Source: Acidobacteriota bacterium (GTDB lineage: Bacteria > Acidobacteriota > Terriglobia > Terriglobales > Acidobacteriaceae). Taken from it: a stretch of DNA of 64,000 bases. The notes below the pieces were generated by a model. The model was not told the DNA's origin. It saw only the letters and a program-made list of their open reading frames with translations, and searched no databases. How positions within the stretch are numbered: the first letter of the stretch is position 1; each line of letters opens with the position of its first letter. The stretch lies in contig JABCZH010000001.1 in the NCBI GenBank assembly GCA_013289795.1, positions 1 through 64,000 on the forward strand, in the 5' to 3' direction. Below, in pieces: positions 24,688 to 45,369 of the stretch. The translations under genes were made by a program, and so were the position numbers.

Positions 24688-25170
24688 TTGCACAACACCG
24701 TCTATCTCTCACTAGGCTCGAACCTTGGCGATCGTGCCGCCAACCTGAATTCCGCCATCAAACGCCTTCGTACTCTCGGAGAAGTCCTTCAGGTTTCGGC
24801 CCTGTACGAAACCGAACCCGTCGAATTCACTGCTCAACCCTGGTTCTTGAATTGTGCAATCGACCTGCGTACCGAACAGACGCCGCAACAACTGATGTCG
24901 GCAATTCTGGAAATCGAACAGCAGATGGGAAGAACACGCATCCAGAAAAAGGGCCCGCGCAGCATCGACATTGACATTCTGCTGTTTGGGGATTCGACGG
25001 TCGAAACTGATGGCCTGACCATCCCTCACCCCGGATTGCAAGAACGACGCTTCGTACTCGAGCCGCTGGCGGAGATCGCCCCTGACGTGTGCCACCCGGC
25101 GTTGAAGCGCACGATTACCGAACTACGGGACGCTCTGCCGCCAGGGCAGGCGGTACGCAAGTTCGTTTGA
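24688..25170 (+). CDS. folK: 2-amino-4-hydroxy-6-hydroxymethyldihydropteridine pyrophosphokinase
   Basis: A 160-residue HPPK of folate synthesis. It transfers pyrophosphate from ATP to the pterin. Hallmarks are YLSLGSNLGDR at the N-terminus and KKGPRSIDIDILLFGD with the magnesium-binding Asp pair. The end IPHPGLQERRFVLEPLAEIAPD is also typical. The start is a TTG at 24688, since no ATG or GTG occurs in frame before the conserved strand; AAGGG lies upstream. It is relevant to the CADD-like gene at 43.3 kb, which may supply the pABA used later in the same pathway. Confidence 0.95.
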   Translation: MHNTVYLSLGSNLGDRAANLNSAIKRLRTLGEVLQVSALYETEPVEFTAQPWFLNCAIDLRTEQTPQQLMSAILEIEQQMGRTRIQKKGPRSIDIDILLFGDSTVETDGLTIPHPGLQERRFVLEPLAEIAPDVCHPALKRTITELRDALPPGQAVRKFV

Positions 25171-42178: not shown

Positions 42179-43072
42179 CTAGAACTTCATCCCGCCGATG
42201 TCTGTAAACTCCGCCTCCTGCCAGCGGTCTGAGGGAAAATACCAGTTACTGGCGCCAGCTTCATGACTGTTTCCGGGTCCGTACTCGACCGTCGGATTGC
42301 GCCAATAATCCATTCCCATTTGCAACAATGCGCCAGGAGAAATTTTGACTCGCGCCTTCACCGTGCAACCCTCCAAATGCCCGCTAGGCAAAGCCTGGCG
42401 GGGAGACAGCGGCCAGAAGTGCCAGACTTTGTCAGGACGCTGTCCCACGCGCAAAGTCACCGCATGATTTGCAAGATCGAGCGTCATCGGCAGGGGCTCA
42501 TGATCGTTGATTCCAAACCATGGATTGCGCCGGTAGAGACCGCCGCGCAGGCCGCCGCGGTCGTCGTTGAGCACGACCTCGCGGCCATCCGCCAGGCAGG
42601 AAAGCTGGGTCCACCCGACTGCAACGGTCGCCGACGCATATCCCGAAACCCGCGTATCGGCAATCGCAATTCCCCACAGCAGGACGGACGAAAATCCCTC
42701 CGGAGCAGGCATCGAATTTACATACCCGGCCTTATAGCTCGCTTCATCCGGCACCCGCGGATCGCTCAGCACAACAAACGGAAACGGACTGGCCGCTCGC
42801 GCCTGCGGCGTGATAAGCGTAATAACCGACGTTGCCGTCCGATGCGGCACAATCGCTACTAACTCCTCGGACGACACGATCTTGAAATCAGCGTCGGTTG
42901 TGTGAAAGACCACTCGCTTCACTTCCTTCAGATTTCTGCCCGAGATCTCAACCCGCGTGCCTTCCGGCCCACCAGTTGGCGAGATTTGAATGATCTCAGG
43001 CGTCTCGCCGGATCCCGCAATACCGAATCCCGATACCAGCAAAAATGCGGCCAAGAAGACATGCTCTTTCAT
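42179..43072 (-). CDS. Secreted IPT/TIG-domain protein
   Basis: A 297-residue protein with a signal peptide (MKEHVFLAAFLLVSGFGIAGSG). Residues about 25-105 form an IPT/TIG immunoglobulin-like domain (PEIIQISPTGGPEGTRVEISGRNLKEVKRVVF). The rest is unassigned, with aromatic-rich strands (GGLYRRNPWFGINDHEPLPMTLDLANHAVTLRVG) resembling a carbohydrate-binding beta-sandwich. I use the ATG at 43072; a GTG lies directly before it. Function unknown. Confidence 0.78.
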   Translation of the reverse strand: MKEHVFLAAFLLVSGFGIAGSGETPEIIQISPTGGPEGTRVEISGRNLKEVKRVVFHTTDADFKIVSSEELVAIVPHRTATSVITLITPQARAASPFPFVVLSDPRVPDEASYKAGYVNSMPAPEGFSSVLLWGIAIADTRVSGYASATVAVGWTQLSCLADGREVVLNDDRGGLRGGLYRRNPWFGINDHEPLPMTLDLANHAVTLRVGQRPDKVWHFWPLSPRQALPSGHLEGCTVKARVKISPGALLQMGMDYWRNPTVEYGPGNSHEAGASNWYFPSDRWQEAEFTDIGGMKF

Positions 43073-43134: not shown

Positions 43135-43288
43135 TTTTGGACTCTTCCCATTCATTATTCTCCCAATCCCACCCGCCGCCACCGTCGCCCGCACAAAATA
43201 CCCGAACCAATTCCCAAAACAAGAATTCCTCACCCCCAGTTGCCACACTGCTCCGCGCCTCGTATATTGTTTCTTTCCGGAGGCCGCC

Positions 43289-43993
43289 ATGAATCACACC
43301 GAATTCTTCCAGCAACTCGAGTCCCGCATCGCCAAGTACGATCTGCTTTGCCACCCTTTTTACCAAGCCTGGACCGCGGGCAAGCTCACCCGCGACGATC
43401 TGCGCGGGTACGCTCAGGACTACTACCACCACGTCGAAGCCTTCCCCACCTACCTCGCCGAGTTGGGCGTACGCCTGGACGAAGGTGAGCTCCGCCGCGC
43501 CGTTTTGGCCAACTTGGCCGATGAAAAGGGCGGTGAGGACCTTTTCGGCGAGCCCGCCCGCGCCCACTCCGAAATATGGCTGGACTTCGCCGAGGGCATG
43601 GGCTCAGGCCGTAACTTGCGCCGCCATTCCCCGCTGCCGGAAATCAGGCAGCTCACCACTTTCTTCCATCGTGTAGCCAGCGAAGGCACGCCGGAAGAGG
43701 CTCTCGCCGCCTTCTACGCCTACGAATCGCAAGTACCCCGCGTAGCCAAGGAGAAAGCCCGTGGCCTGCAACAGATGTACGGAGCCGATCAGCGTACTGC
43801 AGCCTATTTCACGCTGCACACCACCGCCGACGTGCAGCATTCGCAAGTCTGGCGCCAGCAATTGGCCAAGCAGCTAGAAGCGCGTCCGGAAAATGCCGAG
43901 AAGGCACTGAATGCCACCGAGAACGCCGCCAAGGCTCTATGGCAAGGGCTGGACGGAATCGAAGCCCGACGGGTGGCGAAGGCAGCCGCGTAG
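43289..43993 (+). CDS. CADD-like/TenA-fold di-metal oxygenase, putative pABA-forming enzyme
   Basis: A 234-residue helical protein starting at the ATG at 43289 with GGAGG upstream; the longer open frame before it is noncoding. It aligns well with the Chlamydia CADD family. Shared blocks are YAQDYYHHVEAFPTYLAELGVR, AAFYAYESQVPRVAKEKARGL and YFTLHTTADVQHSQVW, with likely metal ligands (Glu, His, Asp) in these helices. Tyr25 in HPFYQAW lines up with the tyrosine that CADD uses as substrate to make p-aminobenzoate, and a Lys-rich REK-like motif is kept. I infer a role in folate pABA supply. PqqC-like or thiaminase-like roles are less likely. Confidence 0.82.
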   Translation: MNHTEFFQQLESRIAKYDLLCHPFYQAWTAGKLTRDDLRGYAQDYYHHVEAFPTYLAELGVRLDEGELRRAVLANLADEKGGEDLFGEPARAHSEIWLDFAEGMGSGRNLRRHSPLPEIRQLTTFFHRVASEGTPEEALAAFYAYESQVPRVAKEKARGLQQMYGADQRTAAYFTLHTTADVQHSQVWRQQLAKQLEARPENAEKALNATENAAKALWQGLDGIEARRVAKAAA

Positions 43994-44071: not shown

Positions 44072-44467
44072 ATGCCCAAGCCTATCCCCATCGGCACTCG
44101 CAGCACAGCCGGAGAAACTGTAGCGTTCGAACACACGCTGGAGTCGCGGCACCCCAACCTGCCTCCGGTCTATTCCACTCCCGACATGATTCGCCTCATG
44201 GAGATCGCCGCCTTCCATGCCCTGCAACCGTATATGGAAGGCGACGAAATAACCGTGGGCACAGCCATCCACATCGAACACCGCGCCGCCAGCGGCATTG
44301 GAGCCAGAATTCGAGCCGAGGCCACGCTTGAATCCTTCGATGGCCGCTTCTACACCGTCAGCGTCGTCGCACGCGACGATGCTCAGGAGATCGGCCGCGG
44401 CACCGTCGGTCGCGCCGTCGTGAGCGTCGGCAAGTTCGTGGAAAAGATGAAGAGAAAGAAAGCCTGA
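44072..44467 (+). CDS. Thioesterase, fluoroacetyl-CoA-thioesterase-like hot-dog fold
   Basis: A 131-residue single-domain hot-dog protein. The motif HPNLPPVYSTPDMIRLMEIAAFHALQPYM and the strand pair EITVGTAIHIEHRAASGIGARIRAEATLESFDGRFY match FlK-like thioesterases. They hydrolyse acyl-CoA, and the substrate here is unknown. AAGGAG precedes the ATG. It ends 62 bases before the next gene. Confidence 0.85.
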   Translation: MPKPIPIGTRSTAGETVAFEHTLESRHPNLPPVYSTPDMIRLMEIAAFHALQPYMEGDEITVGTAIHIEHRAASGIGARIRAEATLESFDGRFYTVSVVARDDAQEIGRGTVGRAVVSVGKFVEKMKRKKA

Positions 44468-44493: not shown

Positions 44494-44523
44494 TTGTCTG
44501 TTCCAATCACCGTCTCTTACAAT
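44494..44523 (+). promoter_or_regulatory. Promoter giving a leaderless mRNA for the PEP mutase-like gene
   Basis: TTGTCT (44494-44499) and TACAAT (44518-44523) are separated by 18 bases. The ATG follows TACAAT after six bases, so the first base of the mRNA would be the A of the start codon. No SD is present between them. Confidence 0.45.
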
Positions 44524-44529
44524 CAACTC

Positions 44530-45369
44530 ATGCCCGAACTCCTCCTACAGAAAGCCAACACTCTCCGCGCCCTGCATCACACCGGCAAAGCCCTGCTCCT
44601 CCCCAACGTCTGGGACGTAACCAGCGCCCGCATCATCGAAGAAGCCGGCTTTCCCGCCATCGCCACCACCAGCGCCGGCATCGCCTTCTCCCTCGGTTAT
44701 CCTGATGGACAGAAGATCTCGCGCTCCGAGATGCTAACCCAGGTGGCTCGCATCGCCCGCGCCGTGAAGGTCCCGGTCACCGCCGACGCCGAAGCTGGTT
44801 ACGGAGATTCTTCAGAAGACGCTGCCCAAACCGCCCGTGAGGTGATTGCCGCTGGTGCCGTCGGGATGAACTTCGAAGATGGCACCGACGATCCCCAGCG
44901 TCCCCTGATCGATCTGCCATTGCAGTTGGAGCGAATCCGTGCCATTCGTGAAGTCGCGGAGAAGTCCGGTGTCCCTCTCGTGCTCAATGCCCGAACCGAC
45001 GTTTATCTGGCTGAGGTGGGACCGGCGGAAACACGCTACGAGCATGCTGTGCGGCGCCTGCAAGCCTATCGTGATGCCGGAGCCGACTGTGTTTTCGTTC
45101 CCGGAGTGCGTGACTCCGAAACCATCAGGCAACTCGTCAAAGACGCGCAATGTCCGGTAAACATCCTCGCTGGCCCGGGCTCGCTCTCGGTGAATGAGAT
45201 GGAGAAAATGGGCGTGGCGCGTGTCAGCCTGGGCTCGGCTCCCATGCGGGCCACGCTTGGCCTGCTCCGCCGGATGCCGGACGAGTTGAAGAGTTCGGGC
45301 ACTTACCGGGCTCTGGAGGGCGCACCCGCACACGGCGATGTGAACAAGATGCTGGCGAAGCAGGAATAG
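44530..45369 (+). CDS. Isocitrate lyase/phosphoenolpyruvate mutase family protein
   Basis: A 279-residue TIM-barrel enzyme. Family motifs are LLLPNVWDVTSARIIEEAGFPAIATTS, PVTADAEAGYGD with the metal-binding Asp/Glu, and VGMNFEDGTDD. A C-terminal GPGSLSVNEMEKMGVARVSLG completes the pattern. Related enzymes cleave or isomerise C-C or C-P bonds (methylisocitrate, oxaloacetate, carboxy-PEP). The exact reaction is not set by sequence. It starts 62 bases after the thioesterase gene and ends 20 bases before tilS. Confidence 0.87.
   Translation: MPELLLQKANTLRALHHTGKALLLPNVWDVTSARIIEEAGFPAIATTSAGIAFSLGYPDGQKISRSEMLTQVARIARAVKVPVTADAEAGYGDSSEDAAQTAREVIAAGAVGMNFEDGTDDPQRPLIDLPLQLERIRAIREVAEKSGVPLVLNARTDVYLAEVGPAETRYEHAVRRLQAYRDAGADCVFVPGVRDSETIRQLVKDAQCPVNILAGPGSLSVNEMEKMGVARVSLGSAPMRATLGLLRRMPDELKSSGTYRALEGAPAHGDVNKMLAKQE

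Follow-up and report, generated by a model that had tools for sequence, protein, structure and literature searches.

The locus raises the question of where a bacterium obtains p-aminobenzoate (pABA) when it is equipped to use this compound and is without the usual enzymes to make it, and whether a relative of the Chlamydia protein CADD supplies it here. Self-sacrificing pABA synthesis has been demonstrated in two enzymes, from Chlamydia and Nitrosomonas (PMC11965152, PMC13108848), and further bearers, namely Wolbachia, Rickettsia, Chloroflexi, Sphingomonas and Nitrosomonas, are named on bioinformatic grounds in PMC11965152. The sacrificed residues reported in the same source are Tyr27 and Lys152 in CADD and Tyr25 and Lys159 in NePabS, the Nitrosomonas enzyme, in which after the reaction Tyr25 is found as glycine and Lys159 as aminoadipate. 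The analysed DNA is a stretch of 64,000 nucleotides, called the window hereafter, for which an original prediction made from the letters had proposed a CADD-like protein forming pABA from its own tyrosine. We consider it highly probable that this gene (Table 1) encodes a CADD-family self-sacrificing pABA synthase, which probably supplies the bacterium with pABA; what we infer, partly by analogy with the two studied enzymes, is the chemistry, the limit of one turnover and the part that the enzyme plays in the cell's supply.

Table 1. Features of the window around the predicted pABA synthase and the folK gene
Feature	Coordinates	Strand	Evidence and remarks
folK (HPPK)	24688..25170	+	TIGR01498 144.3 bits (cut-off 54.1); PF01288 143.5 bits
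GGAGG, likely ribosome binding site	43279..43283	+	five bases 5' of ATG; read in sequence
CADD-family self-sacrificing p-aminobenzoate synthase (predicted)	43289..43993	+	234 aa; TIGR04305, PDB matches, alignments, AlphaFold2
FlK-type hotdog thioesterase	44072..44467	+	PF22636 99.8 bits; also follows CADD in close relatives
PEP mutase / isocitrate lyase family protein	44494..45369	+	PF13714 297.7 bits on 44530-45369; neighbour in many close relatives

The CADD gene lies in an open frame that, at its longest, begins upstream at 42902, and the ATG that follows the GGAGG, taken as residue 1, is where the tblastn matches start in many relatives. In profile search the protein matched NCBIfam TIGR04305 (fol_rel_CADD, 'CADD family putative folate metabolism protein') at 3e-59 with 200.2 bits, 0.2 bits above the cut-off of 200. 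Its sequence matches in the PDB were led by CT610/CADD (1rcw, 8va9), together with 9pj4, at 6e-36 to 2e-33, which is far beyond chance; 9pj4 is a 4-aminobenzoate synthase whose sequence contains the NePabS peptides printed in PMC11965152. The strong similarity to CADD claimed in the original prediction is thus borne out by the family profile as well as by the PDB matches, and identity with the Chlamydia and Nitrosomonas pABA synthases is about 36%. Pfam matches were to Haem_oxygenas_2 and TENA_THI-4. Among 250 genomes of the family the TIGR04305 cut-off was passed in 58, while copies of at least 161 bits were present in 118; roughly one in two likely orthologues thus falls below the cut-off of 200 and may go without its proper name in automatic annotation. 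A further TIGR04305 match of the genome, at C3:30169 with 51.9 bits, might have been another synthase but proved to be PqqC (334.6 bits), lying beside PqqE.

Tyr25 of the window protein aligns with CADD Tyr27 and with the NePabS tyrosine in HPFYIAW, in agreement with the place predicted for the sacrificed tyrosine. The second sacrificed residue, a lysine which the prediction had left unnamed, is present as Lys156 and aligns with CADD Lys152 and NePabS Lys159. Also kept are Tyr41, Tyr45 and Trp97, the counterparts of NePabS Tyr41, Tyr45 and Trp99; Tyr25, Tyr41 and Lys159 are reported to be essential in NePabS, and both Tyr45Phe and Trp99Phe to lower its pABA production significantly (PMC11965152). 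We tabulated these positions over 116 distinct sequences of phylum members, the window protein included and the Nitrosomonas row excluded (one record, L149, is titled Actinobacteria). The loci with CADD number 128, of which 80 were found with peptide patterns and 48 with profile searches (18 from a phylum survey and 30, the best-scoring only, from a family survey); the more distant L024 and L025 (about 100 bits) and loci for which tblastn gave no match at E 1e-12 stand outside the residue counts. Tyr25, Tyr41, Tyr45, His93, Trp97, Glu146, His177 and His184 were observed in all 116 sequences, conservation at Tyr25, as at Tyr145, being partly by construction since the 80 loci were retrieved with patterns containing one or the other tyrosine. 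Lys156, Asp181 and Glu79 were each present in 115, the exceptions being one Arg, one Gly and one gap, respectively. The three histidines and three carboxylates which we take to be the metal ligands (Glu79, His93, Glu146, His177, Asp181 and His184) are therefore present and near-invariant in relatives, as expected from the conserved metal-ligand helices of the original prediction; the ligand assignment presumed for CADD fits the alignment. Leaving position 173 aside, the tabulated catalytic positions show departures in four sequences, L128, L131, L142 and L143, all within the pattern-found 80. Lys156 is replaced by Arg in the copy of L131 (6001-6672), Asp181 by Gly in that of L128 (5861-6559) and Tyr145 by Phe in that of L142 (6001-6699), and these single departures may represent decaying genes, assembly errors or variants.

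An AlphaFold2 model of the protein, computed with 48 window and locus sequences as input, reached a mean pLDDT of 97.3 and a pTM of 0.93. Foldseek placed CADD structures first (TM 0.84-0.85 by query length), and VIA-align superposed the model on CADD with Z 29.7-30.2 at 1.4 A (212 residues for Z 30.2), the next family being PqqC with Z 26.6 over 225 residues at 2.2 A. A common fold by itself is not evidence of function; the predicted one is a heme-oxygenase-like helical bundle, and the three histidines and three carboxylates of the sequence are its putative metal ligands.

NePabS carries Phe148 and Phe177 and prefers Fe/Fe, and according to PMC11965152 its preference turns to Mn/Fe when both are changed to Tyr, as in CADD, while Phe148Tyr alone makes it cambialistic. 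In alignments the corresponding pair of the window protein is Tyr145/Tyr173, and because of this pair we predict that its cofactor is probably Mn/Fe rather than Fe/Fe. Position 145 is Tyr in 115 of the 116 distinct sequences, subject to the bias of retrieval noted above, and at position 173 there are 110 sequences with Tyr and six with Phe (L006 to L011), the latter being those that the phylum survey contributed from outside the family. Our tree, a quick one in which column 173 was kept while its changes were counted, requires two or more changes at this position. For Chlamydia, the use of Mn is proposed in PMC11965152 to reflect iron limitation by the host. Record titles of the acidobacterial relatives name bog, palsa, fen, soil, depth-marked and groundwater samples, and a few isolates; as natural Tyr/Tyr and Tyr/Phe pairs occur in lineages titled bog, palsa, fen, soil and groundwater, the idea of host iron limitation becomes testable here.

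By analogy with what is published on CADD and NePabS, O2 would be activated by the dimetal centre of three histidines and three carboxylates, and the oxidising equivalent would reach Tyr25 by way of aromatic residues, the candidates being Tyr145, Tyr173, Tyr45 and Trp97. Tyr41, essential in NePabS with its role there unexplained, is a further candidate for this radical path. The side chain of Tyr25, the presumed carbon donor, would be cut between C-alpha and C-beta so that glycine remains; the carboxylate of pABA would receive two oxygens from O2, and its nitrogen would come from Lys156. Each protein would yield one pABA and would then be spent, and FolP would couple this pABA to the pterin activated by FolK.

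The original prediction would lose ground if the genome carried a complete pabABC set, and we examined the draft (4.67 Mb, 33 contigs, 99.91% complete, 1.41% contaminated) for pabA, pabB and pabC. Profile searches of this nearly complete draft found no PabB and no PabC over cut-off, so that a complete set is not there. One chorismate-binding enzyme was found, which is TrpE, and one TrpG/PabA-type amidotransferase over cut-off, located about 1.3 kb from TrpE on the same contig and the other strand. Class-IV aminotransferases number two, both over the branched-chain model cut-offs and far below those for aminodeoxychorismate lyase. Among the other folate genes the search covered folK and folP; FolP is present (290.7 bits), and the folK which had been noticed in the window was confirmed (Table 1), 18 kb from the CADD gene and without a shared operon. 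With FolP and FolK present and PabB and PabC absent, the cell has the means to use pABA but not the usual enzymes to make it.

We then compared the distribution of CADD and PabB among relatives. In a survey of 297 genomes of the phylum, CADD was detected at 174 bits or more in 19, the next match being 103 bits; PabB was over cut-off in 82 genomes of the survey and in none of the 19 with CADD (p 0.003), counts which are weaker than those for the family since the TIGR00553 cut-off may miss divergent PabB. Among 43 genomes examined PabB was over cut-off in 16, and these 16 all belong to the 18 family members that lack CADD, as against none of the 13 family genomes with CADD (p 5e-7), and it was likewise over cut-off in none of the six CADD genomes outside the family. 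A larger sample of 250 family genomes, overlapping with these 13 and 18, contained CADD at 161 bits or more in 118 genomes and a partial copy, counted as present, in five more (G341, G381, G438, G439, G477), while PabB was over cut-off in 52. Both genes, CADD only, PabB only and neither were found in 4, 119, 48 and 79 of these genomes (Fisher p 1.5e-12), or in 4, 114, 48 and 84 without the five partial copies (p 1.6e-11), and in 3, 68, 41 and 38 of the 150 genomes with a completeness of 95% or more and a contamination of 5% or less (p 1.7e-11), all of these per-genome p-values being overstated as the genomes are related. With one genome taken from each of the 56 genera of the 150, the counts were 2, 37, 7 and 10 (p 0.002). 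Throughout the family, CADD and PabB thus tend to exclude each other. Within the 150, genomes with CADD only and genomes with PabB only occur inside single genera, namely g4 (four CADD, eight PabB), g7 (one CADD, eight PabB, two neither) and g8 (two CADD, one PabB). Two genomes scoring 90-95 bits (G411, G493) were counted as without CADD on score alone. The genomes with both genes over cut-off are G328, G394, G415 and G440, two of which share genus g220, whose other members have CADD only. The PabB proteins that were opened, L053 and L054, are PabB-PabC fusions, and the named CADD relatives are titled Terriglobia, Acidobacteriaceae, Candidatus Sulfotelmatobacter, Edaphobacter, Paracidobacterium and the like. 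CADD is also present in two cultured relatives, Edaphobacter lichenicola X5P2 (L165) and Paracidobacterium acidisoli 4G-K13 (L138).

Of the genomes with neither gene (among them G300, G322, G342, G073, G171, G490 and G507), 33 were examined and FolP was over cut-off in 32, the exception being G489; as these relatives keep folP, absence of PabB alone is no proof that CADD is the source. The same 33 genomes gave a single match to the PabB model in 28 cases and two in five (G332, G357, G455, G464, G507), which may reflect a single gene that is split or a PabB that stays under the cut-off. Genomes of this group may rely on uptake and hence depend on pABA, may have a third route or, in a few cases, may carry a PabB below cut-off.

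These genomes are also an argument for supposing that the window protein does make pABA, with uptake or an unrecognised route as the main supply and CADD as an auxiliary or conditional one; the four genomes with both CADD and PabB point the same way. The strong mutual avoidance of CADD and PabB, the near-complete conservation of the sacrificed residues and the closeness of folK to CADD in some relatives speak against it, and we regard this reading as unlikely. It could be argued instead that TrpE and a branched-chain aminotransferase double as the aminodeoxychorismate route and that the function of CADD is unrelated. TrpE and TrpG are indeed encoded in the genome, and a single PabB-model match, as in the 28 genomes above, is what TrpE also gives. 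The enzyme is, however, over the anthranilate synthase cut-off (TIGR00564, 553.1 bits against 517.7) and under both PabB models (TIGR00553, 295.5 against 328.4; PabB-clade2, 363.8 against 408.55), and the two aminotransferases are both of the branched-chain type, which makes such doubling most improbable.

PqqC and HrmI structures rank next after CADD in the comparison of the predicted model, and the protein also gives weak matches to the PqqC model TIGR02111 (47.7 bits) and to NF042919 for BesC, a 4-chloro-allylglycine synthase (55.6 bits), so that it might be a dimetal oxidase of the heme-oxygenase-like type with kinship to PqqC or BesC, whose target would be a small external molecule instead of the protein itself. 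Both matches fall far short of the curated cut-offs of 240 and 500, which speaks against membership in either family, and the genome has a true PqqC of its own, as described above. Moreover, Tyr25 and Lys156 are kept in the window protein, whereas the more distant L024 and L025 are without both. We consider an oxidase of external substrates very unlikely. For the self-sacrificing synthase, on the other hand, the absence of PabB and PabC, the mutual avoidance of CADD and PabB and the position of CADD beside folK in relatives lend support to the earlier proposal that this organism may use the CADD route, which we infer from these distributions.

The genes directly downstream of CADD (Table 1) were considered as parts of the pathway; we know of no link of FlK-type thioesterases or PEP-mutase family proteins to folate, none was found here, and we treat them as context only. 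In some close relatives tilS, hpt and ftsH are also downstream of CADD. Further evidence on folate came from folK, which in other relatives precedes CADD on the same strand. Between its stop and the beginning of the CADD match there are 78-92 bp in 17 loci (representing 11 distinct CADD sequences), 245-293 bp in three (two distinct) and 2.7-3.3 kb in five (five distinct). In total folK is near CADD in 26 of the 128 loci (115 distinct CADD sequences), many of which have short flanks. All seven folK-adjacent rows that were kept in the tree fall in one clade with 97% SH-aLRT, and hence the linkage may represent one event in the phylum. According to PMC1971073, the CT610 homologues of Chlamydia and Wolbachia cluster with folABKP. 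In L149 (586-1278), the bog-sample record titled Actinobacteria bacterium, folK is 1.2 kb downstream of CADD and the tree branch is long; this copy may be a transfer or a mislabelled bin.

On the quick tree the CADD sequences of the family form two groups, L056-L065 and all others, which suggests separate acquisitions. Aligned members of the smaller group share 38-41% identity with the window protein. Carriage of CADD on mobile elements found no support: the window protein had no match among 50,697 phage records, and of 13 stretches of viral contigs that matched a pattern none was confirmed. Ten plasmid records matched at 25-30% identity (one annotated pqqC, three iron-containing redox enzymes, six unannotated), which we take for other superfamily members. 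CADD may nonetheless have been transferred in the past.

In open-licence PubMed Central we found no paper joining CADD and pABA with Acidobacteriota, nor one joining pabB and p-aminobenzoate with Acidobacteriota, and a search there for pABA auxotrophy in Acidobacteriota returned only matches that were off-topic by title; further searches brought up no title on Acidobacteriota. The enzyme family is already known; its role and probable Mn preference in an acidobacterial family are now testable. Gene content and neighbourhood suggest that CADD is the likely way to pABA for roughly half the genomes of a large acidobacterial family, and the survey exposed many family genomes that keep FolP without either known route to pABA. 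Tentatively, and with somewhat less than even confidence, we propose that in this largely free-living family a Mn/Fe self-sacrificing synthase is a main source of pABA and has been exchanged several times with PabB-PabC, that in environmental lineages, too, two tyrosines determine the use of Mn, which would then not be an answer to host iron restriction, and that the genomes with neither gene would point to pABA dependence or a third route.

When compared with known systems, the window protein resembles CADD (CT610 of Chlamydia trachomatis, Mn/Fe), with which it shares the fold, as predicted (Z 30 for 212 residues at 1.4 A), the sacrificed Tyr and Lys, the ligand positions, a genome without the usual pab genes, and Tyr at both metal-tuning positions (Tyr141/Tyr170 in CADD). 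It differs from CADD in sequence, with 36% identity in the structural alignment and seven extra residues between Glu79 and His93, in its acidobacterial host as opposed to an obligate intracellular pathogen, and in a locus without a folate cluster, folK being close in relatives only. With NePabS (ne1434 of Nitrosomonas europaea, Fe/Fe) it has in common Tyr25, Tyr41, Tyr45, the tryptophan (Trp99) and the lysine (Lys159); identity is again 36%, the extra loop of NePabS is missing, and Tyr replaces Phe at both metal-setting positions, Mn/Fe being predicted accordingly. PqqC, the pyrroloquinoline-quinone synthase, shares the heme-oxygenase-like fold (Z 26.6) and is set apart by the TIGR02111 cut-off and by the presence of a separate true PqqC in the genome. 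Finally, the PabB-PabC fusion of L053 and L054, composed of chorismate-binding and class-IV aminotransferase domains, is predicted to serve the same metabolic step, although it is an unrelated enzyme, and PabB occurs together with CADD in four of the 250 family genomes.
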